From Microcaldota archaeon (GTDB lineage Archaea > Micrarchaeota > Micrarchaeia > Anstonellales > Anstonellaceae): 52,644 nt of DNA. Below are positions 12,126 through 52,269 of this stretch, piece after piece. The notes under the pieces were generated by a model that worked only from the letters and a program-made list of their open reading frames with translations, did no database searches and had not been told where the DNA came from. The first letter of the stretch is position 1, and each line of letters opens with the position of its first letter. Both the position numbers and the translations under genes were made by a program. The stretch is taken from assembly GCA_026396415.1 (NCBI GenBank), contig JAPLWX010000020.1, positions 1 to 52,644 of the forward strand, read 5' to 3'.

Positions 12126-13427
12126 ATGCTTTCTTTGAGACTTATCCGCGAAAACCCGTCGATATTGGAAGAGTCGCTTGCGCGCAGGAATGCCGACACT
12201 GCGCCTGCTGCGGAACTCATGGCGCTTGACAAGAAATGGAGGCTGGCAAAGAACGAGGCGGACAACCTCAAGGCGGAGAGGAATGCGGCTTCCATGAAAA
12301 TATCCGAAGCAAAGAAGACAGCCGCCAAGGGCGGCGCCCATTTGCCGCAGGCAAATAGGGAGGGCGAGGATGTTGCCAAGATAATTGCCAAGACAAAAAA
12401 GCTTGCGGCGGAGATTGGGGCGGCTGACGAGAAAGCGGATGCGCTTGAGGCGCAGATGAACGAAATACTTCTTACAGTGGCGAACATCCCGGACAAGACC
12501 GTGCCTTCAGGCAAGGGCAAGGAGGACAATGCGGAGGTGCGCAAGTGGGGCATGCCCAAGCTCACCAGCAAGGATGCCAAGCCCCACTACGAGGTGGCTG
12601 ACAAGCGCCTCATTGATTTTGAACGGGGCGTGAAGCTTGCAGGGCACAGGTTTGTAATGCTTCGCGGGCTTGCCGCGCGCCTCGAGCGCTCGCTCATAAA
12701 TTTCATGCTGGATTTGCAGGGAATGAACGGCTACACCGAGGTGCTGCCGCCATACATGGTGAACAGGAAGGCGATGATGGGGACCGGGCAGTTCCCGAAA
12801 TTCGCATCAGAGCAGTACAAGATAGAGGACGAGGACCTGTACATGATACCGACAGCAGAGGTGCCTGTCACCAACATGTTCTCGGGCGAGACTTTGAAGG
12901 AGGAGCAGCTTCCCATGTCGTTTTGCGCATATTCCGCGTGCTTCAGGCGCGAGGCAGGCTCGTACCAGAAGGACATCAAGGGCATAATGCGCCAGCACCA
13001 GTTCGACAAGGTGGAGCTGGTGAAGTTCACGAAGCCTGAAGAATCTTTCCACGAGCTTGAGAAGCTCACAAAGGACGCGGAGTCCGTGCTGCAAAAGCTT
13101 GGGCTGCCCTACAGGGTGGTGGAGCTTTGCACCGGCGACCTGGGGTTTGCCTCTGCAAAAACGTATGATATTGAGGCGTGGCTGCCCTCGCAGGACAGGT
13201 ACAGGGAGATTTCATCCTGCTCGAACTGCACCGACTTCCAGGCGCGGCGCGCGAACATCCGCTTCTGGCGCGCAGGAAAGCCGGAGTTCGTGCACACGCT
13301 GAATGGCAGCGGGCTTGCAGTGGGCAGGACTATGATTGCGATAATGGAAAACTACCAGGACGAGACGGGCTTTGAAGTGCCCAAAGCGCTGCGCGACTAC
13401 ATGAGATGCGATAGGGTGGAGTTCTAA
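12126..13427 (+). CDS. serS: seryl-tRNA synthetase
   Basis: [21 protein letters not shown]; class II motifs incl. [32 protein letters not shown] abuts the serA stop. Confidence 0.97.
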
Positions 13428-17210: not shown

Positions 17211-17455
17211 CATCGAGCTTTGCTCGATGACTTGTCGAGCTCGGCTCGACAATTGTTGAACGCTTGCGCGTTCAACATCTGATGCGTTTTGCATCAGCAA
17301 AACGCACATCGCCGCGCTCTTTCAGCATCGGCAGAGCCGATGTCTGATGCATTTTGCTCCCGATTCGCCTGCAGGCGAATGGGCGCAGTTTTGCAAAGCA
17401 AAACTGCCGTTGCAAAATGCACATCAAATGCTGGAAAAGATGCTACATCTTTTCC
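17211..17455. repeat. intergenic hairpin cluster (array A), includes class I junction element at 17348-17421
   Basis: catcgagc-ttt-gctcgatg; ttgtcgagc-tcg-gctcgacaa; tgttgaacgc-ttgc-gcgttcaaca; tgcgttttgc-atca-gcaaaacgca; catcggc-aga-gccgatg; tgcattttgc[...]gcaaaatgca enclosing two hairpins; ggaaaagatg-cta-catcttttcc. Confidence 0.85.
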
Positions 17456-26264: not shown

Positions 26265-26336
26265 AGCCCCCGACGAGATTTGAACTCGTGACATCCAGTT
26301 TACGAAACTGGCGCTCTACCGCTGAGCTACAGGGGC
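26265..26336 (-). tRNA. tRNA-Thr(CGT)
   Basis: Cloverleaf by eye: acceptor GCCCCTG/CGGGGGC, D stem GCTC/GAGC, anticodon arm CCAGT-TTCGTAA-ACTGG, T arm ACGAG-TTCAAAT-CTCGT, discriminator T; no CCA encoded. Confidence 0.95.
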
Positions 26337-26342
26337 ATTGAC

Positions 26343-26535
26343 AACTGCGAAGCAGGTGGCAATAGGTTGTGCATCAGCACAACCGTGTGGCCAATTTCCC
26401 GGAGGAAATTGGGCAATTGTTGAGCGACGGCAGTCGTCCTTTGGACGACTGCGCCCATTCGCCAAAGGCGAATCGGGAGCTCAACATGTCGGTCAAAACC
26501 AGCAGGTTTTGAGCGCAGGCGTGCGCTTTGCGCGA
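26343..26535. repeat. intergenic hairpin cluster (array B), includes class I junction element at 26418-26486
   Basis: ggttgtgc-atca-gcacaacc; ccaatttcc-cgga-ggaaattgg; tgttgagc[...]gctcaaca enclosing gcagtcgtcc-ttt-ggacgactgc and attcgcc-aaa-ggcgaat; tcaaaacc-agca-ggttttga; gcgc-ttt-gcgc. Confidence 0.85.
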
Positions 26536-36732: not shown

Positions 36733-36907
36733 CGCGGAGAGGAAAACGCCGAGCGTCAACTGCCGGAGCAGTCCCTCTTTTTGCGCAGCAAAAAGGGGCG
36801 CAATCGCCTGATGCGTCGGGCGATTGCCGTGGCGCGTTTTTGGCACGACAGACAATTGCAAAGCAATTGGATGCGAAGTCGTGCGCAGCACGACAACGGC
36901 GCCAAAA
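36733..36907. repeat. intergenic hairpin cluster (array C), includes a class I junction core at 36772-36830
   Basis: ctgc-cgga-gcag; ctttttgc-gca-gcaaaaag; gcaatcgcc...ggcgattgc; caattgc-aaa-gcaattg; gtcgtgc-gca-gcacgac; outer ttttggc/gccaaaa. Confidence 0.8.
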
Positions 36908-41022: not shown

Positions 41023-44000
41023 CTACTTCTGCGAGAGCGGCAGCGGCTGGCTTGATGCCAGGGCATTGTCATCGTAAAGCGCGAGGATTTCCGCATCGGT
41101 CAGGGCGCGGCTGAACACGCGCACCTCGTCAATCCTGCCGGAGAAGGGCTCGCTGATATAGTCGGGCCCGTTGCCGATTGCAAAGTTGCTGAGGCTCGTG
41201 ATCGGGGTCCCGAGGCTGGCGCTGCTGCCGGCCTGCGCCCCGTTGATGTAAAGCCTTGCCACGCCGCCCTGCCTTGTTGCCGCGACATGGTACCATTCAT
41301 TGTCCTGGATGGAGCCCTCGGGAGATGTCGCATAGCCTTGTATGAGGAGGCCCAGGTAGTGATGGTCGACGAAGAATTCCGTGCCATTGGCATTGCGTAT
41401 GCTGTCATAGTTGCCCATTATGTAGTTGTTAGCGGATGCGCCAGTCGTATTTATCCATGCCGAGAGCGTGAAGTCCCCTGTTCCGCTGAGAAGCGCCGAG
41501 GGCAGCATTATCTTGTCCGTTGTCCTGCCGCCGGTGTTGAATTCGTATGCCCCCCCCACTTTCCCATCAGGCACCCAGGCTGCGCCGGTCTTGGTGCCTG
41601 CGCCCAGGAAGCGGGAATAATCCACAATCATGCCGCGCTCGTCCGAGCTCACGTTGACGTCGAAAGGCATGGAGAGCATGGTCTCGGGCAGGAGCGCCCT
41701 TATCCTCAGGCCGGCATTGTATGCCGCGGTGAGGTTCTGCGCCGCAGCGCCGGAATAGGTGAACGCGAGGTTCATGCTGCACTGCTGCTGGAACCAGCCA
41801 TTGTAGTGGCCCAGGACATCCGCCGGCGTGAGCGAGCGCTTGTAGAAGCGCACCTCGCCAAGCTCGCCTGCAAATCCGCTCGCCCCGGGGCTGCCGATGT
41901 AGAACGCCCCGCTGCTTTCCAGGCTTCCAAGCGAAAAGCCGGCTGGCTGCTGGTAGAGCACGCCGTCCAGGTATACCGAGTAGTTGCCGGTGCGGTCAAC
42001 CGAGAGCGCGACCTGGTGCCAATCGCAGTCGGCAAGCGAAACCGCGGGCAAAATCGAGGCGGCGCTCCCATCGCTGGCGCCCTTGCTGCTTGAGCTGTAC
42101 ATCCCCATGGTGAGCGTGTTGTCCGTGCCCACGGCCCAGTTGATGCCCTGCGGCTTGCCATCGACAGTGGACATCTGCGAGAACAGCACGCCCCCCGGCT
42201 GGATTGCATCTGCGCGCACCCAGGCAAGCATGGAGAAGTCGCTTGCCTGCGTGACGGATACATCGTCTATGTTGTATGGCACGCCGGATATGGGGTAGAA
42301 TCGGAGCTGCATCCTGGCGTTCGGAAGAGTCTTGAATACGTTCACCACCTGGCGCCACGCCGTGTCCGTGGCGGCAGGCTCTATTATTCCGCCATCCGCC
42401 CCCCCGGTGGCATTGGCGTACAGCCATTGCCCGCTTGCCGAGAGGTAGGCATTGTTGATGGTGTCGTAAAGCGCATAGCGCGCAAGCGGGGTGCCCGTGG
42501 TCCCGACGCGCGCCCAGAACGAAAGCACGTACTTCGCATCGCCCGCAAGCGGGCCCATGAGCGCCGAGTTGTATGCATATGAGCCCTCTGCGCCGCTCAC
42601 CGATGCGGATGATGCACCTGAATGGTATGTGCCGGCCGAGCGCGCGAAGCCGACTCCGCCCGCCTTGGCCCAGCCGCTGAACTGCATATCGCCGGTGACA
42701 TTCAGGCTTATGCAGTAGTAGTCGCTGCTGCCCGAAAGCAGAGCGCAGGAATATGGCGATTCGCAGCCGCCCGGGCGGGAGGCGCTGCATTTGGCGTAGG
42801 GCGCGTAGTGGTCGACGCACTGCCCATAGTCCGAGAGGATGGTGTGGTTGGCCCCGTAGCTTGAAACGCCTATGCTTTCCCTGTTCAGCGTGTCGCAGAA
42901 CCCTGCTGCACATTCCGAGTCACTGAGGCAGGCGGCGCCAATCGGGCTGAGCGCGGGCTTGGGCGGTGCGCACACCAGGCTGTTTGTGCCAAGCGAGTCC
43001 TGGCAGCTTCCGGAGCAGCACTCGACGTCCAGGGCGCAGCTTGCATTCTGGGGCACGCATGACTTGCACAATCCTGCGCTGCACAAGCCAGAGGCAGCGC
43101 CCTGCGCAGCGCAGCATTGGCTGTTGGATGCGCAGGAAGCCGAGCTGTTTATCGGTATGCAGGCGGAACAGGCGCCATCCGCGCAAAATGAGCAGCCGGA
43201 CGGGCATTGCGATGAAAGATTGCAGGACTGGCCGCATGACAGTGCGTCCACGCATACTTTCACGCTTGAGTTCTCCAGGCTGGGCCTGCACAGGCCCGAA
43301 AGGCAGTCTGCGCCGGAAGAGCAGTTGAGCATGGGGCTTGCAATCAGGCAGGTCCCTGCGGGGGAGGTTGAGCTGCTGTATTTGCAAGCCATGCCTGAGC
43401 AGCACTTCTGCGCGGGCGAGCAGGCGGCCCTGCTGCAGCTTGTCCCTATCGCCGGGAGTGTGAATGCCGAGGACTCGTTCGGGGCTGAGCATGCCCCGTA
43501 CCTGTCGCATGCGCGGACCTGCATTTTTATCTGCATGCCCTCGGTGCAGCCTTCTGGAAGAAGCTCGCAGCTGAAAGAAGTGGAGCTGTGCCAGAAGCCC
43601 GTTATGGGCGTGTTGGAGGCAAGCCACCTGTACTCGATCCTGACGGGGGTGTCAAAGTCCGGGTCAGGGGGCATGTTGGTGGCGACGCAGTTCTGCACGC
43701 ATGTTATTGTCCCGTTGGAAGCAGACAGGCTCAGCACTGGCACTTGGAATGGGACTGCGGGCGGGTGATTGGCCGCGCATATGCCTTCCTTGCAGGTGAG
43801 GTTGGAGCCGGAGCAGCAGTCAGCGGCAGAAGTGCATGTCCTTCCGCCTTCGCTTAGGCAGCCGACACACGCCCCAAAGTCGGAAGAGCCGGTTGCCAGG
43901 TTGCAGAAGCTGTTCCCGCAGCACTCCGAGTTGGAGGCGCAGGTGACTGCGCCGATCGGGAGGCAGGGGCTGCATGCGCCGCCTGTGCAATAAGGCGCCT

Positions 44001-47000
44001 GGGGGGCGCACTCCGTTGCGGACGCGCAGGCCTCCCCGGCAGCTTTCTTTGCAACGCACACTCCGCCGCTGCAGGTTGATGACGGGCAGCATGAAAGCCA
44101 GGGGGAGCCGGGGCATGTTTCGCCGCCGCTGGTGCACACGCCCGCGTTGCAGGCTGCAGTGCCGCAGCTTGAAGACGCCGTGGATGAGCTGCAAGGCTGC
44201 CCCATTGGCAGGCAGTATGCGCTTTCGCATGAAGTGCACGGATAGCAGGTATGGGAGACCTGGTTGCAGCCGGCCTCGCAGTAGGGTGCATCGCCGGCCA
44301 TGCAGTCTTCATCGATATTGCAGGACTTGAGCTCGCATGCCCCGATGGTGTAGTTCTTGGGGGCGGGAGGCGGCAGTATCGCGCAGCGGTCGGCGGTCAT
44401 TGGCGCGTAATCCGCAACCGTGCCGTAGAGCATGCCGCGCGCGTTTGCCGCGTTGTACGGGTACTGCGACGGGTCTGCAAGCGAATCCGAGCCGGCATAG
44501 TAAGTGGTGTTCCAGCCGGGCTTTGCGGACCTGTTGGAGCCGCAGATGGAGACCTCCTTGCCTATTGCCAGGTTGTACCAGCTGTTGCCCTCGTTCTGCC
44601 CGGGAATGGTGGAGTTGTAGAAGTTCTGCCCGTCTTCCTCCTTTGCATAGAAGCCGGCGGTGGCGCCAAACGTGTTCCAGTAAAACGTGTTGCGCGTTGA
44701 GTGCGACAGGCGCAGCAGGTCGCTCGTGTACGAGGAGGACAGGAATGTGTTGCCGTACATCATGTTGCCGGCCGAATTGTCCTCGAAGTAAGCCGATACG
44801 CCGCCTGCGGCGGACGTGAACGTGGAGCCTGCCACCGTAAGCGCTTCGCCTCCGCTCACCCAAAGCCCGTAGCCGCCGCCCGTATTGGTGCCTGATGAGT
44901 TCGAGACGGCGGCATGGGTGGTTGCAAGATAGATGCCTGCGCCGGTCGCGCCGGTGGATGATGATGAGGCTGCAGCACCGTATATGGATGCATATGAGGA
45001 CGCGCCTTCCACTGAAATGCCGTTTTTGCTTGATGATGATGCGGATACGTTTGAGATGGTGGTGCCTATTGCGCCATCGGCAACCGTTATGCCGTTCCCG
45101 TCCCCGGATGATGCCAAGCCGTTTTGCAGCAGCGTATCATCCGTGAATTGGGCAAGGTAAACGGCATCGCTTGCGGCTGTCACATTCATGCCGGATATGT
45201 TGGTGCCTGAAACGCCGTCCAGGTAAATGCCTGTGCCCCCGGATGCCCGCATGCCTTCAATCGCATTGCCGTCCGAGCCGCCCGATGCCTGCAGGCGCAT
45301 GGCAGTGCCGGTGCCCGCAACGATGGTAATGTTGGCGAAGCGGTTGGCAGGGGAGTTGGTGATGAAAAGGGCGGTGCCTGCGCTGGTGGATGCCGTGTCG
45401 CCCGTGAATGAATTGTTGGCGCTTCCGCCCATGAAAATCCCATAGCCGCCGCCTGTTGCGTAGTTGTTGCTGAAGATGTTCGAGCCCGTGCTTGTGATGT
45501 CCATGCCCGTTCCGTTGCCATTGGCAGTCGCCACGTTGTTGGAGATGTTGTTGCAGCCGTAATCAGGCGAGTTGATGGAGATTGCCTTGCCGGCCGCAAC
45601 GGTGATGGCGTTGCCTGAAAGAGAATTGTTCGCGCTTGATGAGAGGTAGATTCCGAAGTAGCCTGCATCCGCGCTTCCCCTTGTGATTGCATTGAATGAT
45701 ATGGAGTTGTTGCTGCTCTGGTCGAGGAATATGCTGTGCCCGGTTGAATTGGAAAGCACATTGCCGGATATTACCGAGGCCTGGCTGGCGGGCTCCAGGT
45801 GGATTCCGTGCCTGCCTGAAAACACCGTGTTGTTTGCGACCAGGGCGCCCGTGGAACTGGCGATGTCCACGCCGTCCATGGAGGCGTTCAGGGTGCCCCC
45901 TATGACCGAGGCGGAGTCCGACTGGTTGATGCAAACCGCATGGCTGGAGGCGGAGGTTGCGTTGGAGCTGATGAGTTGGCTGTTATGGGACGCGGAAAGG
46001 TAAATGCCATAGCCGTACTGCGAGTATGCAAAGTTGTTGGAAAGCGTGCTGTAGTTTGAGCCTATGAGCAGGATGGCGGCTGAATGGGTTGCAAGCGCGG
46101 CATTGCTGCTTGTTATATGGATGGTGCTGTTCTGGATGTTGCTGTTCCTGGATGTGTTGAAGTAGATGCCAAATGCAAAGTTGCTTATGTTGCAGTTCTT
46201 CACCGTAGTGTTGAATTGGGTGGAGTAGACGCCGTAGGTGCCGGTGATGTTCGCACCGAGCAATGCGCCGCCCTGGCAGTCGAATGTGCCGTTGCTTCCC
46301 CCGTTTATGTAAATTCCGTGCCCGCTGCCGCTTGTGTTGATGCTTATTGCGGTGAAGTTGTTCCTGTTCGAGCTGTTCGCCGCGTAAATCCCATAGCCCG
46401 TGGAGCCGTTCACAAGAATCGAGGAGAATGCGGAATCGCTCGTGCTGCTCAGCACGACGCCTGACGAGCTGCCGTTGGCGCCGGCGCTGGTGCCGCCACT
46501 GCCTTTCGCGCCGCCTGTGCCGCCGCGGATGCCGGCTATGTTGTTCGAGGAGAGGCTGTTGGAGCTGGAGGAGATGAGGTAGATGGCAGAGACGCTGCCT
46601 CCAAGGCCGCCATAACCTAAGTTGCAGCCGCCTGTGCCGCCCGCGCCTCCGGTGAGCGTGGAGATGGAGTTGGAGGTGAGATTGATGAAGCTGGATGAGG
46701 ATAAGTAGATGGCTGAAACGGCGCCGCCTGTGCCGCCTGTGCCGCCATTGCCGCCTGTGCCGCCAATGCCTGCAGTGATGTTTGAGATGATATTGGAGGT
46801 GAGGTTGCTGGAGTTGGAGGAGGAGAGGTAGATTGCGGCAGAAGTGCCGCCTGGACTTCCGGCAGCGCCGCTGGAACCGTAGATTCCGGATATGCTGTTG
46901 CCCGTGATGATGGATTTGTTGATGCTTGTCAATGCCAGCCCGGCCGAGATGCTGATTGAAGAGAGATAGATTGGCGCTGATCTGGTGCGGGTGATGTTGA

Positions 47001-50000
47001 CCGTTTGCGACGAGATGTTGAGGGAGGTGGCATTGTAGAAGAAGAGGACGGGCTGGCTATCCATTGTATTTGCCGAGGCAGGCACATAGTAGTCGCCTGA
47101 CGCCTGGGTGGAAGTGAATGTGTTGGAATAGGAGTTGCTGTCTATTGAGAAAGCGGTTGAGAAGCCCGCGGCGCCGGAATTGCCGCCTGCCCCGGGCCCG
47201 CCTCCCGAACCGCCCGAAAGGGTGGAGATAATATTCGAGAGGAACAGGTTTGAGGCGGAAGAGATTAGGTAGAAGGCGGCAGAAGTGCCGCCAGTGCCGC
47301 CAACGCCTCCGCCTCCGCCGCCGCCGCTTGTGCCGCCTGTGCCGGCAGTGAGGCTGGAGATGTTATTGGAAGAGAGGTTGTTGGAATTGGAGGATGAGAT
47401 GTAAAATGCGGAGGCGGTCCCGCCAGTGCCGCCGCCGCCCCATGTGCCGCCAGTGCCGCCTATGCCTGCGAAGAGGCCCGAGACGGCGTTGGAGGTGATG
47501 TTGTTCGAGCTTGATGATGAAAGGTAGATTGCGATGGAATTGCCGCCCGCGCCGCCAGTAGCAAAGCTGGTGCCGATATCGCCGCCGGCAGCCCCGGTGA
47601 TATTCGAGATGATGTTGCCGAAGAGGATGGAACTGCTTGCCGATGCCAGGTAGATGCCGTAGGCAGGATATCCTGCGCCGCCCGCCGTGCTGGTGCTTCC
47701 CGCTGTGAGGTTGAGGAGGGTGTTCGAAGATATGTTGTTGAGGGGAGACGCCGCGTAGATTCCATAGACGGCTGAATCCGAAGGGGCTGCATCGTCCCTG
47801 ATGGTGTTGTTGTAGAGGGTGGAGCGGTTCGCGCTTGAATTGAGGTAGATGCCGGTGGGAAACTTCTTGATGATGCAGTTTTTCACAGTTGTGTTGGACT
47901 GGTTGGAGTAGACGCCGGAAGTCCCCGAGGCGTTCGTACCCATAAGTGATATGCCTTGGCAGTCCACGCTTACGTTTGAGCCGCCGTCGATGTTGATTGC
48001 TGATGAGCGGTTGGAGGAGGCGGTGGTGTTGATGATTTGCGTGTTGTGGGAAGCAGCCGTGACGACGATGCCATAACTAGATGTACCTGAAACGAGGTTG
48101 CGTGCGATTGAATTGTTTATGATGGTGTTGGGGCTCAGTTGAATGCAAATGCCAATAAGTGAGTTTGATGTTCCTGTGAAGTTGGAGAGTATGATGGAGA
48201 TTGTGTTATAGATATAGATACCACGACTGCTGCCGGATGTCCCCGTTGAGTTGGTAATTGTGCTATTGGTGTTGCTGTCGCCGAGATAGATGCCTACTCC
48301 GGTTATTGCAATGGTATTGCTGTTTGTTATACTATCGTTGCCTCCACCAGTGATAAATATGCCCGCGCCATGCCCCCAAGACCATGCTTTCGTTGTTGAT
48401 GCATTTACATTGTCTATCGTCCCGTTCTTCGCCCCTCCGGCAAAGTAAATGCCAACGTCGAAGTTGGAAATGTTGCAGTTCTTCACCGTGGTGTTGGGCT
48501 GGTTCGAGTAGACGCCGTAGGTGCCGGTTGAGTTGTTGCCGGCGATTGAGAAGCCTGCGCAGTTGAGCGTGACGTTAGCTGCTGTCACATTGAAGCATGT
48601 GGAGCCGCTGATGCTTGCGTTCGTGGTCATGTTGTAGGCCATATTTGCGGATGAGAGGGCGCCGCACCGGAGGATTGTTGGCGCGCTTGCGTTTGTCAGG
48701 GGCGCATAGTCCGCGCAGCCTGCGAAGTTGCAGGAGAACTTGCCGCCTGAGGTGGAGTTGCCGTAGGGATAGCCGCTGCCGGATGAGCCGATGTAGAGGC
48801 CGGGGATTGAGGAGTTGGAAGTGCCATAGACCTGCACGCTGCCGTTGATGACGTTTGCCCAGATGTTGCCCTCATTTGGCGTGGTGCCTATCGCCCCCGG
48901 GCTTGCGGTCTGCGCGTATTCCGCCTTTATCCAGTCGGCGGAGCGGTTGGTGTTCGAGATGCGCGCCTCGTCAAGGGAGCCATTGTATTTACCCCAATAT
49001 GTTGTATCTGTTTCATAGCCAATTCTCACCGTATTCGTGCTAAAAGTCCATGCACCATTCGCCGAAGCATTTGCAACCTTAACACCATCTACGTAAAGCA
49101 TTGCCATGCCTCCATTCGGAGCCGCAATTAAGGTCACAAGATGCCAGTTGCCATCTACAACACTTCCACCTGACATCCAACTAACTATACTTGCTGTGGC
49201 GTTCTTTATTTGTACGGCTGGAGAGGCACCGGAAAGCACTATAGTAATGCCATTATACGCAGAAGCTCCTCCGGCACGGCAGAATAATGCACAGGAGGCG
49301 CCACCCGTGCCATTGATTGACCCCCCACTTGACTTCACCCATATTGACCATGTGGATGTTGTGCTATCATAGTTCGTAGAGTTAGGAATGTATATGTGGT
49401 CGCCTGCAGTTGAATTGAATAAAGCTCCTCCGTCTGCCATCCCTGTTATGGCTGTTGGTGTTGTGATTGTTCCATTGTTTCCATAAATTGTATCTATTGC
49501 GTTCAAAGTTGTCCCATTTCCGAGATGATAAACCGCCACAAAGTTGCTGTCCCATGTCCCAGTCTTGTTCTCCCCGCTTGCGGCGCCCGTGTTGCCAAGG
49601 TAGGCGTAGATGCGCGTGAGGGCGCTGCCCGCGTAGTTGCCCTGCACCCAGAAGGTGCTGTTGACAGTGGAGTTGCCGCAGCTTTCAACCTCATAGTTGA
49701 GGATGTTTTTGGAGCTGTCCGTGAAGCGCACGTTGGCGCAGGTCGTGGCGTTCCAGTAGGTGGAGTTGGTGGTGTTGAGGCTCACAAGTGCAGGGAAGTT
49801 CGTGAGACTGCTTGCCACCGTGGTGTTGATGTCGATTGGCAGCATATATGGCCATGGGGCAAGCTGCGCAGTGGCTGTGGAGCAGTTGTAGTGGTTGGAG
49901 CCGTTGGTGTCGTTCACGTACAGGCCGGTTGTGGCGGTGAAGTTGTTGAGGCAGAAGGTGTTGTTGTTTGAGATGCTTGCGATGTAAAGAAGATTGTTCG

Positions 50001-52269
50001 CCCCGCCAATGGTGTTGTTGCTTATGATTGAGTTGTTGCAGTTTGACATTTTCAGCGTGTTGGAATTTGCTCCGGTTGCGGTTATCGTGTTGCCTATTAT
50101 GTTGATGTTGCTGCCAGCCAGATTGATGCCCGATGTCACGCCTCCGATTATGGTGTTGTTTGCCACGCTTACATTCACCGGAGCACCTGTAAATGACATT
50201 CCATCTACTATTCCGATTAGCGTGTTGTTCATTATTGCTATATTGTTCCCATTGGCTAATCGGATTGCCGCGTATGATGCTCCGGTTGAATACATGTATG
50301 AGTTCGTGACCGACACGGTTGTGCCGGGATACACGAACATCCCATAGCCAGTTATCGCCGAGAGGTTGCAGTTCGTCACATTGACGTTGCTTACTGTCGT
50401 CATATATATTGCATTAGCATAGGGGTAAGTGTCGTTGCGCGTGATGGTTATGTTTGTGTCCTTTACCGTCACTTTGTCGGTGGATACTGCCTGCACTCCG
50501 TGCTGGAAATTGCTTATCACGCAGTTCATCACGGTGGTGTTTGCCTGTGTGGTGTATATGCCGTTTGTGCCGGTTGAGTTGTTCCCAGTTATCGACCAGC
50601 CTGCGCAGTTGAGCGTAACGTTTGCCGCCGTGACAGTAAAGCATGTCGAGCCGTTGATGCTTGCGTTTGCGGTCATGTTGTAGACCGTGTTTGCACTGGA
50701 GAGGTTGCCGCACTGGAGTGCGGCCGCTGTGCTTGCATTGGTGAGAGGCGCATAGTCCGCGCAGCCTGCGAAGTTGCAGGAGAACTTGCCGCCGCTGCTT
50801 GCCGTTGTGTTGCTGTAGGGAACGCCTGCGCCGGATGTGCCGATGTAGAGGCCTGGAATTGATGATGCTGTTGAGCCGTAGACTGAAATGCTGCCGTTCA
50901 GCACATTTGCCCAGATGTTGCCCTGGTTGCTGCCGTTGTAGGTGCAGTTGTAGTAGTTCGAGCCGTTCAGGTCTTGGACGTAAGTCGTCGGGCTTGTTCC
51001 TGAATTTGAGAAGTTGTTCAGGCAGAAGGTGTTGTTGGATGCGCTTGAGTCAAGATAGAGCAGGGTAGTGGCATTGAGGATTGTGTTGTTGATGAATCGT
51101 GTTCCAACGGTTCCGCCAACGTTCTTTATGAACCCGACAGCATATGTCATTCCATAGCCGTTGATTGTGCTGTTTGCCACAGTGGCGTTTGTCGTGTCCT
51201 GCAACAGCAATGACCCGTATGTGCTGCTTCTGCCAGTTGCAGTGCAGTTATTGATTATTACGCCAGTGCTAAGATATACATACAGTGCCATTGATGTCGT
51301 TGAAACGCCGATTGAGGATAGCACGGAATTGGTTATTGTGGTGTAGTTACTGGTTTGGAGGATGATGCCATATTGCCCGTTGCTTGTCTGCGTGACTTTT
51401 GAGGTCACATTATCCACTGTGCTATTGGTTACGTTATTGAGACTTATTCCCCGTGTGTATTTGCTTATGTTGCAGTTCTTTACCGTCAGGTTGACTATGT
51501 TGATAGTAGAGATGCCCAAATAGGGATTGGCATCGTTGCCGGCTATGTTCGCGCCCATGCAGTCCACGGTCACATTGTTTCCGCCATCAATAACGATGCC
51601 GTGCGCACTCGTGGTGGTTATCGTGTTTTGGTTGAGGCTGTTCCTGTGCGCGCTTGAAGTAATGTAGACTGCATAGCCTCCGGTGAGTGTTTCGGCGATT
51701 GTGTTGTTCTGGATGAGGCCGTCGGTTGAACCGCTGTAGCGTATGCCGTTGGAGAAGCCCGAAACGTTGCAGTTCTTCACCGTGGTGCCCGTTCCTGCGC
51801 TGTAAACACCCCACGTGCCGGCTGCGCTCACGCCTGTTATTGTCTTGCCCATGCAATCAATCACAACGCCGCTGCCTGAATTGACTGTGATGGCCGCGGC
51901 GGTGTTCACGGTTGAGATGGAATAGAGCGTGTTGTTCTGTATTATGGTGTTTGCCGAAGAGCCCGTGTTCCTGATGGCAGTGTAGCGCGCGGCATTGGTG
52001 ACGTTTATGGTGTTGCTTGATATGATGCCGTTTGACGCGCCGTTGAACTGGATGCCGTCCTCAAAGCCGGTTATTATGCAATTCTTCACGGTTGTGTTGG
52101 ACTGGCCGGAATAGACGCCATATGTGCTGGCGGCATTGTTGCCGGTTATGGAATGCCCGTTGCATTCAATTGTCACATTGTCCGCCTGCACGTTGAAGCA
52201 CGAGCCGTTGCTTGCCAGGTCAGAGGTCACATTGCACACGTAGTTTGGCGTGGCAAGATTGCCGCACAC
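41023..52269 (-). CDS. giant modular surface protein: parallel beta-helix repeats, DUF2341/LamG-like domains, Gly-rich helices, Cys-rich region
   Basis: 3748 codons open; repeated SGSTCFNVTAANVTLNCAGFSIAGNNSTGTYGVYSNQPNTTVKNCNISNF (NosD/PbH1-like), LamG-like WSIWVKSS..LYVDGVKV..GYETDT and ISAWINTT..LYINGAQAGSS. Confidence 0.9.
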   Translation of the reverse strand: MCGNLATPNYVCNVTSDLASNGSCFNVQADNVTIECNGHSITGNNAASTYGVYSGQSNTTVKNCIITGFEDGIQFNGASNGIISSNTINVTNAARYTAIRNTGSSANTIIQNNTLYSISTVNTAAAITVNSGSGVVIDCMGKTITGVSAAGTWGVYSAGTGTTVKNCNVSGFSNGIRYSGSTDGLIQNNTIAETLTGGYAVYITSSAHRNSLNQNTITTTSAHGIVIDGGNNVTVDCMGANIAGNDANPYLGISTINIVNLTVKNCNISKYTRGISLNNVTNSTVDNVTSKVTQTSNGQYGIILQTSNYTTITNSVLSSIGVSTTSMALYVYLSTGVIINNCTATGRSSTYGSLLLQDTTNATVANSTINGYGMTYAVGFIKNVGGTVGTRFINNTILNATTLLYLDSSASNNTFCLNNFSNSGTSPTTYVQDLNGSNYYNCTYNGSNQGNIWANVLNGSISVYGSTASSIPGLYIGTSGAGVPYSNTTASSGGKFSCNFAGCADYAPLTNASTAAALQCGNLSSANTVYNMTANASINGSTCFTVTAANVTLNCAGWSITGNNSTGTNGIYTTQANTTVMNCVISNFQHGVQAVSTDKVTVKDTNITITRNDTYPYANAIYMTTVSNVNVTNCNLSAITGYGMFVYPGTTVSVTNSYMYSTGASYAAIRLANGNNIAIMNNTLIGIVDGMSFTGAPVNVSVANNTIIGGVTSGINLAGSNINIIGNTITATGANSNTLKMSNCNNSIISNNTIGGANNLLYIASISNNNTFCLNNFTATTGLYVNDTNGSNHYNCSTATAQLAPWPYMLPIDINTTVASSLTNFPALVSLNTTNSTYWNATTCANVRFTDSSKNILNYEVESCGNSTVNSTFWVQGNYAGSALTRIYAYLGNTGAASGENKTGTWDSNFVAVYHLGNGTTLNAIDTIYGNNGTITTPTAITGMADGGALFNSTAGDHIYIPNSTNYDSTTSTWSIWVKSSGGSINGTGGASCALFCRAGGASAYNGITIVLSGASPAVQIKNATASIVSWMSGGSVVDGNWHLVTLIAAPNGGMAMLYVDGVKVANASANGAWTFSTNTVRIGYETDTTYWGKYNGSLDEARISNTNRSADWIKAEYAQTASPGAIGTTPNEGNIWANVINGSVQVYGTSNSSIPGLYIGSSGSGYPYGNSTSGGKFSCNFAGCADYAPLTNASAPTILRCGALSSANMAYNMTTNASISGSTCFNVTAANVTLNCAGFSIAGNNSTGTYGVYSNQPNTTVKNCNISNFDVGIYFAGGAKNGTIDNVNASTTKAWSWGHGAGIFITGGGNDSITNSNTIAITGVGIYLGDSNTNSTITNSTGTSGSSRGIYIYNTISIILSNFTGTSNSLIGICIQLSPNTIINNSIARNLVSGTSSYGIVVTAASHNTQIINTTASSNRSSAINIDGGSNVSVDCQGISLMGTNASGTSGVYSNQSNTTVKNCIIKKFPTGIYLNSSANRSTLYNNTIRDDAAPSDSAVYGIYAASPLNNISSNTLLNLTAGSTSTAGGAGYPAYGIYLASASSSILFGNIISNITGAAGGDIGTSFATGGAGGNSIAIYLSSSSSNNITSNAVSGLFAGIGGTGGTWGGGGTGGTASAFYISSSNSNNLSSNNISSLTAGTGGTSGGGGGGGVGGTGGTSAAFYLISSASNLFLSNIISTLSGGSGGGPGAGGNSGAAGFSTAFSIDSNSYSNTFTSTQASGDYYVPASANTMDSQPVLFFYNATSLNISSQTVNITRTRSAPIYLSSISISAGLALTSINKSIITGNSISGIYGSSGAAGSPGGTSAAIYLSSSNSSNLTSNIISNITAGIGGTGGNGGTGGTGGAVSAIYLSSSSFINLTSNSISTLTGGAGGTGGCNLGYGGLGGSVSAIYLISSSSNSLSSNNIAGIRGGTGGAKGSGGTSAGANGSSSGVVLSSTSDSAFSSILVNGSTGYGIYAANSSNRNNFTAISINTSGSGHGIYINGGSNGTFDCQGGALLGANITGTYGVYSTQFNTTVKNCNISNFAFGIYFNTSRNSNIQNSTIHITSSNAALATHSAAILLIGSNYSTLSNNFAYSQYGYGIYLSASHNSQLISSNATSASSHAVCINQSDSASVIGGTLNASMDGVDIASSTGALVANNTVFSGRHGIHLEPASQASVISGNVLSNSTGHSIFLDQSSNNSISFNAITRGSADAGYFGIYLSSSANNSLSGNAITVAAGKAISINSPDYGCNNISNNVATANGNGTGMDITSTGSNIFSNNYATGGGYGIFMGGSANNSFTGDTASTSAGTALFITNSPANRFANITIVAGTGTAMRLQASGGSDGNAIEGMRASGGTGIYLDGVSGTNISGMNVTAASDAVYLAQFTDDTLLQNGLASSGDGNGITVADGAIGTTISNVSASSSSKNGISVEGASSYASIYGAAASSSSTGATGAGIYLATTHAAVSNSSGTNTGGGYGLWVSGGEALTVAGSTFTSAAGGVSAYFEDNSAGNMMYGNTFLSSSYTSDLLRLSHSTRNTFYWNTFGATAGFYAKEEDGQNFYNSTIPGQNEGNSWYNLAIGKEVSICGSNRSAKPGWNTTYYAGSDSLADPSQYPYNAANARGMLYGTVADYAPMTADRCAILPPPAPKNYTIGACELKSCNIDEDCMAGDAPYCEAGCNQVSHTCYPCTSCESAYCLPMGQPCSSSTASSSCGTAACNAGVCTSGGETCPGSPWLSCCPSSTCSGGVCVAKKAAGEACASATECAPQAPYCTGGACSPCLPIGAVTCASNSECCGNSFCNLATGSSDFGACVGCLSEGGRTCTSAADCCSGSNLTCKEGICAANHPPAVPFQVPVLSLSASNGTITCVQNCVATNMPPDPDFDTPVRIEYRWLASNTPITGFWHSSTSFSCELLPEGCTEGMQIKMQVRACDRYGACSAPNESSAFTLPAIGTSCSRAACSPAQKCCSGMACKYSSSTSPAGTCLIASPMLNCSSGADCLSGLCRPSLENSSVKVCVDALSCGQSCNLSSQCPSGCSFCADGACSACIPINSSASCASNSQCCAAQGAASGLCSAGLCKSCVPQNASCALDVECCSGSCQDSLGTNSLVCAPPKPALSPIGAACLSDSECAAGFCDTLNRESIGVSSYGANHTILSDYGQCVDHYAPYAKCSASRPGGCESPYSCALLSGSSDYYCISLNVTGDMQFSGWAKAGGVGFARSAGTYHSGASSASVSGAEGSYAYNSALMGPLAGDAKYVLSFWARVGTTGTPLARYALYDTINNAYLSASGQWLYANATGGADGGIIEPAATDTAWRQVVNVFKTLPNARMQLRFYPISGVPYNIDDVSVTQASDFSMLAWVRADAIQPGGVLFSQMSTVDGKPQGINWAVGTDNTLTMGMYSSSSKGASDGSAASILPAVSLADCDWHQVALSVDRTGNYSVYLDGVLYQQPAGFSLGSLESSGAFYIGSPGASGFAGELGEVRFYKRSLTPADVLGHYNGWFQQQCSMNLAFTYSGAAAQNLTAAYNAGLRIRALLPETMLSMPFDVNVSSDERGMIVDYSRFLGAGTKTGAAWVPDGKVGGAYEFNTGGRTTDKIMLPSALLSGTGDFTLSAWINTTGASANNYIMGNYDSIRNANGTEFFVDHHYLGLLIQGYATSPEGSIQDNEWYHVAATRQGGVARLYINGAQAGSSASLGTPITSLSNFAIGNGPDYISEPFSGRIDEVRVFSRALTDAEILALYDDNALASSQPLPLSQK
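48701..48747 (-). repeat. 47-bp exact repeat inside the giant gene, copy 1
   Basis: ggcgcatagtccgcgcagcctgcgaagttgcaggagaacttgccgcc. Confidence 0.85.
50747..50793 (-). repeat. 47-bp exact repeat inside the giant gene, copy 2
   Basis: Identical to 48701-48747. Confidence 0.85.

Follow-up and report, generated by a model that had tools for sequence, protein, structure and literature searches.

Do the junction-like palindromes that recur along this archaeal contig encode a folded RNA, or are they mobile DNA? The window, that is the whole stretch of 52,644 nucleotides analysed here, lies on contig C40 of a 1.74 Mb draft genome (G000; 52 contigs) that TFIIB marks as archaeal. A sequence-only reading had proposed that three regions (17348-17421, 26418-26486 and 36772-36830) share one architecture of conserved linkers and hairpins, and this architecture is present at all three places. 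A descriptor of the form CCC-N-stem-loop-stem-GGG-N-stem-loop-stem with perfect stems matched the window exactly 4 times, as compared to 0.017 matches on average, and never more than 1, in 60 dinucleotide shuffles of the window. The fourth match, copy D, was absent from the earlier list (Table 1). Sequence comparison makes it likely that the copies are mobile DNA of Micrarchaeota, forming one family of elements that is non-autonomous and transposase-free and is built as a double hairpin of 45–60 nt.

Table 1. Element copies, host hairpins and neighboring features in the window. Bit scores are those of R2, a covariance model of the core alone.
Feature	Position	Strand	Sequence or structure	Basis
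Core copy A, 54 nt	17358..17411	+	TCCC-G-ATTCGCC/GGCGAAT-GGGC-GCAGTTTTGC/GCAAAACTGC-CGTT	Descriptor match; R2 69.7 bits
Core copy B, 53 nt	26426..26478	-	TCCC-G-ATTCGCC/GGCGAAT-GGGC-GCAGTCGTCC/GGACGACTGC-CGTC	Descriptor match; R2 67.4 bits
Core copy C, 60 nt	36772..36831	+	TCCC-T-CTTTTTGC/GCAAAAAG-GGGC-GCAATCGCC/GGCGATTGC-CGTG; no flanking stem	Descriptor match; R2 44.9 bits
Core copy D, 45 nt	12317..12361	-	TCCC-T-ATTTGCC/GGCAAAT-GGGC-GCCGCC/GGCGGC-TGTC; inside serS, antisense; no P1	Descriptor match; R2 50.5 bits
serS, seryl-tRNA synthetase	12126..13427	+	Copy D as 14 extra codons in N-terminal domain	Pfam; homologues; PDB alignments
Left arm of copy A host hairpin (P1)	17345..17357	+	TGATGCATTTTGC	Perfect 10-bp stem with 17412-17421
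Right arm of copy A host hairpin (P1)	17412..17425	+	GCAAAATGCACATC	Perfect 10-bp stem
Left arm of copy B host hairpin (P1)	26479..26486	-	TGTTGAGC	Perfect 8-bp stem with 26418-26425
Right arm of copy B host hairpin (P1)	26418..26425	-	GCTCAACA	Perfect 8-bp stem
Unoccupied sister of copy A host hairpin	17280..17310	+	TGATGCGTTTTGC-ATCA-GCAAAACGCACATC	Sequence; hairpin scan
Run of three simple perfect hairpins	17211-17229, 17232-17252, 17254-17277			Hairpin scan
Simple hairpin across permease stop codon	17432..17456			Hairpin scan

The conserved unit consists of TCCC, a one-base bulge, a first hairpin (P2), GGGC, a second hairpin (P3) and a terminal CGTY. TCCC and GGGC, previously described as linkers, are indeed invariant but are not free: CCC pairs with GGG around the one-base bulge (G or T) and extends P2, so that P2 has the form of a bulged hairpin. 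P3 mirrors P2 in many subtypes (CGC, stem, bulge, GCG; model hits and DNA folds), so that the unit is roughly a head-to-head pair of bulged hairpins. Copies A and B had been called identical at the linkers and in P2; they do have the P2 stem ATTCGCC/GGCGAAT in common, but the last linker base differs (CGTT vs CGTC). The stem sequences vary among genome families (GCAGTTTTGC in f1, ATTGTTC and ATTGTTGC in f7) and TCCC, GGGC and YGTY are constant. Folding z-scores for copies A, B and C were −6.4, −6.5 and −3.0 as RNA and −6.2, −7.5 and −4.0 as DNA. Cores at four loci in several genomes (L037, L050, L151 and L168) have a common upstream flank like CCATTTTCCGTGAACGCT, which suggests that this flank is part of a longer subfamily's unit.

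The outer stem (P1) had been taken for part of the element, with compensatory changes between copies. The P1 stems are real and perfect in copies A (10 bp) and B (8 bp), but they belong to the insertion-site hairpin and lie outside the conserved unit; the stem comes from a different hairpin at each site, and the apparent compensation is not compensatory evolution. Copy C, credited with a weak outer stem, is without P1, and the upstream CTGCcggaGCAG is a separate small hairpin. Among 21 strict cores the flanking stems are bimodal, with 7–10 bp in 9 and none in 12, whereas stems of 5 bp or longer appeared in 0.23 copies on average, and in 3 at most, in 20,000 trials of randomly paired flanks. 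In the larger set, 17/64 cores are flanked by a stem of 6 bp or more vs 0.34 expected (maximum 3). These sequence comparisons indicate that P1 is the stem of a hairpin whose loop received the unit and that a hairpin loop is a preferred site. The 12 strict cores without P1 make the hairpin target a preference and not a rule, and the insertion sites in SerRS, eL8 and AtpI have no clear hairpin.

Unoccupied hairpins are found close to copy A and in other genomes. About 35 bases upstream of the TGATGCATTTTGC/GCAAAATGCACATC stem lies an unoccupied sister hairpin, and the first of the three simple hairpins (at 17211), CATCGAGC-ttt-GCTCGATG, corresponds, without the insertion, to the hairpin that hosts a core in genome G012 (L059). 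The whole palindrome cluster at 17.2–17.46 kb is missing in the congener G008, where about 40 bases follow the permease. The search for unoccupied counterparts of copies B and C turned up no usable orthologous intergenic region. In the window as a whole, perfect hairpins of 8 bp or more number 26 vs 3.3 in shuffles. This excess, together with arms that are perfect and interchangeable, would also be expected if there were no defined element and the hairpins arose and grew by template switching and repair errors at hairpin tips. Such an origin is very unlikely: TCCC, the bulge, GGGC and YGTY are common to families with unrelated stems, and near-identical 57-nt units at unrelated sites require that the unit itself is copied.

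Several before and after states were found. The uS2 gene of the closest congener, G008, reads CCAGATGC-GCT-GCATCTG, and that of G000 reads CCAGATGC-[57-nt core]-GCATCTG, with the GCT tri-loop replaced. In uL24, G008 has GCTTTCGCC-TTT-GGCGAGCGG and G000 has GCTTTCAAT-[57-nt core]-GGCGAGCGG, with the TTT tri-loop replaced. Since G008 is the one sister genome that aligns at these two genes, loss in G008 rather than gain in G000 is possible. The 42 nt (14 codons) that SerRS has gained are absent from 13 aligned relatives, and two relatives in the PDB also show a 14-residue gap in the N-terminal domain, at a position that is presumably the turn of the tRNA-binding coiled coil. Two insertions relative to homologues are found in eL8.

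Other copies are nested. In V-ATPase subunit I (AtpI) one core lies inside the P3 loop of another, and in the tail of topoisomerase I an older unit holds a core in its P2 loop. For Pus10 the series is stepwise: the stretch between the CxxC pairs is empty in G003, G005 and G009, holds a single unit in G008, with CGCA as its P3 loop (the usual one, also found in L043 and L157), and in G000 holds the unit of G008 with a second core inside its CGCA loop. The net gain equals core length minus 3 in 5 of 6 measured cases (uS2, uL24, SerRS, the second eL8 copy and the inner Pus10 copy), consistent with the loss of a tri-loop or of three bases. No target site duplication was found at uS2, uL24 or SerRS; at one of the eL8 sites GAAAAG may be repeated, in low-complexity sequence. 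We also rejected a MITE as a description of the unit, which lacks its own terminal inverted repeats (the stem around it changes from site to site and is missing in 12/21 strict cores) and makes no duplication at these three genes. The clean pairs of sites, in which the sister genome keeps a hairpin with an intact loop where G000 carries the unit, make the spread of transposase-free hairpin repeats, and entry at the hairpin tip, testable with defined substrates.

The stems covary strongly. In an alignment of 70 model hits, 93% of the cells pair and two-sided changes number 200 vs 56 in shuffles, counts to be read in light of an alignment that leans to the model's structure and of related rows that are not independent; pairing falls to 32–55% when the alignment is slid. 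Both controls thus support what the sequence-only reading put forward, a real family of several copies in which linkers are invariant and stems compensated, with covariation that exceeds chance. That reading had left open selection on a folded RNA or on single-stranded DNA. A structured non-coding or cis-regulatory RNA, with stems kept by selection on the fold, would account for the two-sided covariation in P2 and P3 and for the very stable RNA folds. RNA helices under selection usually contain several per cent G-U pairs. Here G-U makes up 3 of 909 pairs, in hits that were free to be imperfect although some training rows of the model came from the perfect-stem descriptor, and this points to DNA palindromes rather than to selection on RNA. 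Many copies lie antisense inside coding sequence, including ribosomal protein and tRNA synthetase genes, the insertions are precise relative to sister genomes, and the neighbors of different copies have nothing in common. A scan of the window against Rfam at the gathering score returned no family for the element, in keeping with the earlier remark that no known family was recognised in it, and a tRNA at 26265-26336 as its sole match. An RNA origin of the stems is accordingly highly improbable, and single-stranded DNA is the more likely half of the alternative. For RNA-discovery pipelines, perfect stem covariation with almost no G-U can stem from mobile DNA palindromes.

The census of copies rests on model searches with R1, a covariance model of eight copies, and with R2. 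G000 has 48 matches at E≤1 and about 29 at E≤0.01, some of which are the reverse strand of another match; further copies in the genome, which the sequence-only reading had proposed to look for, are thus present. With R2 (E≤1e-4), 30 of the 296 sampled genomes of the phylum have matches, all in one class, and 266 have none; G053 has 17 cores among the matches listed. The E-values are approximate, and the hits that went into the two models came from the same analysis. Among named species genomes, the exact core pattern occurs in two archaeal MAGs only, labelled Candidatus Micrarchaeota and 'archaeon', and it was not found in 2.9 million viral contigs. Three pattern hits (L003, L005 and L006) were set aside as chance matches. 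Two copies of a composite of ~220 bp lie in unrelated flanks in G000 (L207, C7:700-1300, and L208, C18:33100-33600); their outer arms resemble CACTGAATGACCTCGGTG / CCGAGGTCATTCAC and enclose two three-way-junction modules. This seems to be a larger palindromic composite moving as one unit.

Protein genes carry many of the cores. Hosts confirmed by Pfam are uS2, uL24 (L26 family), eL8 (L7Ae), uS11, Pus10, V-ATPase I, topoisomerase I, SerRS, an epimerase and a DHH/DHHA1 protein in G005, and the copies lie mostly in tails and linkers. Cores in coding genes measure 45, 54 or 57 nt, all multiples of three; the exception is the outer copy in AtpI, with an interrupted P3. Between genes of the window the copies measure 53, 54 and 60 nt. 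Each core has four to six open frames, and 10/13 coding copies use the antisense frame TAV..GAP..NRE (binomial p about 2e-5 after six-fold correction, uncorrected for relatedness and peptide bias). The inner AtpI, the outer Pus10 and the N-terminal epimerase copy (L012/L016) use another frame or strand, so not all coding copies are in one frame; the epimerase copy runs in the sense direction (MGKILLTG in G008 vs MGKI-QASSTAV...HRKILLTG). The simplest explanation of the frame preference is tolerance of a hydrophilic peptide. Since uS2, uL24, eL8, probably uS11, SerRS and Pus10 carry element-encoded peptides, the annotation of Micrarchaeota proteins is affected. The effect on the host is most likely selfish or neutral.

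We searched for the machinery that might move the unit and found no mobilizer. Across 59 genomes, Y1 transposase, TnpB and reverse transcriptase (Y1_Tnp, TnpB and RVT_1) showed no significant association with element presence (p = 1, 0.57 and 0.17), and they were rejected as mobilizers. Reverse transcriptase genes are present in G000: two (L231, C31:4070-4726, and L232, C14:450-863) are preceded by Asn-rich stretches (..NNNFDNNNRRN..RFGM..) and, classified by eye, look like diversity-generating retroelements, and a third, on C52 (L233), by the same criterion looks like the group II intron type.

The unit could in principle be the fused ends of an IS200/IS605-type transposon (PATE), mobilized in trans by a Y1 transposase. 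Two bulged hairpins, a logic resembling that of single-stranded DNA and the lack of target duplication would fit such a derivative, Haloquadratum has a 52-bp PATE made up of IS605 ends (PMC3119063), and G000 has two Y1 genes. Nevertheless, Y1 genes occur in 4 of 17 element-bearing genomes (drafts, from which Y1 could be missing) and TnpB in 0/4 of G000, G012, G053 and G055, and Fisher tests gave the p values above for both. At the ends of 29 fetched Y1/TnpB loci we found no convincing core (one weak match, E 0.04), nor homologous IS605-type ends at these loci from incomplete drafts, and the hairpins beside the Y1 genes of G000 have TGAA loops and other stems. We therefore regard a PATE origin as unlikely. 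The TGAA hairpins themselves are perfect, unrelated to the core and follow the two IS200-type TnpA genes (L204, C25:116500-119900, and L203); they read AACTACCCCC-tgaa-GGGGGTAGTT and CCCACGCC-tgaa-GGCGTGGG.

The Haloquadratum walsbyi SMR-A elements and PATEs are likewise archaeal and transposase-free and make no target duplication (PMC3119063). SMR-A inserts within palindromes of other elements, and its mobilization was called 'enigmatic'; it is about 110 bp long, has terminal inverted repeats and targets IS605/PATE ends (PMC3119063). In contrast, the present element is 45–60 nt long without its own terminal inverted repeats; its targets are hairpin loops, among them those of the element itself, and it also inserts into coding genes.

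Bacterial RPEs and CGTC/GTAG REPs, as described in PMC3733652 and PMC10969869, are also short palindromic repeats with many in-frame copies in protein genes and a recurring peptide; some families lie inside palindromes, hairpins are paired head to head, and the mobilizer of the CGTC type is given there as unknown. By the same descriptions RPEs are about 100–150 bp long and the REP tag precedes a single hairpin, whereas the archaeal unit is a double hairpin of 45–60 nt that takes the place of hairpin tri-loops and also inserts into its own copies. Compared with RPEs by description, it is likewise an in-frame repeat with a recurring peptide in unrelated protein genes (uS2, uL24, eL8 twice, SerRS, AtpI and Pus10, with unoccupied homologues), and with it the Rickettsia phenomenon of a 'selfish palindrome inside protein genes' extends to an archaeal lineage. 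Membership in the bacterial REP/BIME superfamilies (GTAG or CGTC) is suggested by the head-to-head hairpins, the terminal CGTC, the in-frame intragenic copies, the P2 stems of 7–9 bp that often start with AT, and the insertion of some REP families into palindromes (PMC3733652). The same text, as we read it, places the REP tag before the stem and a CCA tail after it, and here CGTC stands 3' of the P3 hairpin. There is no 5' GTAG/CGTC tag on a single imperfect hairpin, as CGTY follows the second hairpin and TCCC precedes the first, and the double unit is indivisible, not found as singles and dimers. We found no link to a REP-associated transposase; for the GTAG class in particular, Y1 and the element were not associated across the 59 genomes, and Y1 genes had no cores beside them. 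An archaeal branch of REP/BIME is thus quite improbable.

Mitochondrial double-hairpin elements of sponges (PMC2800124) and Volvox (PMC2670323), compared by description, have two adjacent hairpins as one short mobile unit, often nested, palindromes in palindromes, as does the element described here. In the available portions of these papers they insert into variable parts of genes by a mechanism given as unknown, and no TCCC/GGGC/CGTY frame is reported; they are organellar, whereas the coding copies found here keep frame in universal genes. In the open literature, subscription journals being outside the scope, we found no description of palindromic repeats from Micrarchaeota or DPANN. In the way it works the element resembles all three kinds of repeat (REP/RPE, mitochondrial double-hairpin and SMR-A), and it is, as far as found, undescribed in these archaea.

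For the mobile double hairpin that we favor, a route can be proposed. A hairpin extruded as single-stranded DNA or as a cruciform would be the recognition target of a trans-acting machinery, and its opened tip would be the joining point. The comparisons above show the outcome: the unit stands where the host tri-loop was, the old stem is now P1, and the element serves as its own target at its hairpin tips, which yields nested copies. The stems may stay perfect either because the arms template each other in DNA or because the spread is recent. More speculatively, the target may be a DNA shape and not a sequence: the element may enter single-stranded hairpin tips, swap the tri-loop, use its own hairpins as landing sites for recursive growth and decorate universal translation proteins, all via a novel recombination activity, a proposal we hold as tentative.

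Two further features of the window were observed. An AbiEii-type nucleotidyltransferase (Pfam PF08843; 36703 is its last position, 35696 its first, + strand) lies directly 5' of copy C. An open frame of 3748 codons (41023-52269, − strand) is very large for such a genome.
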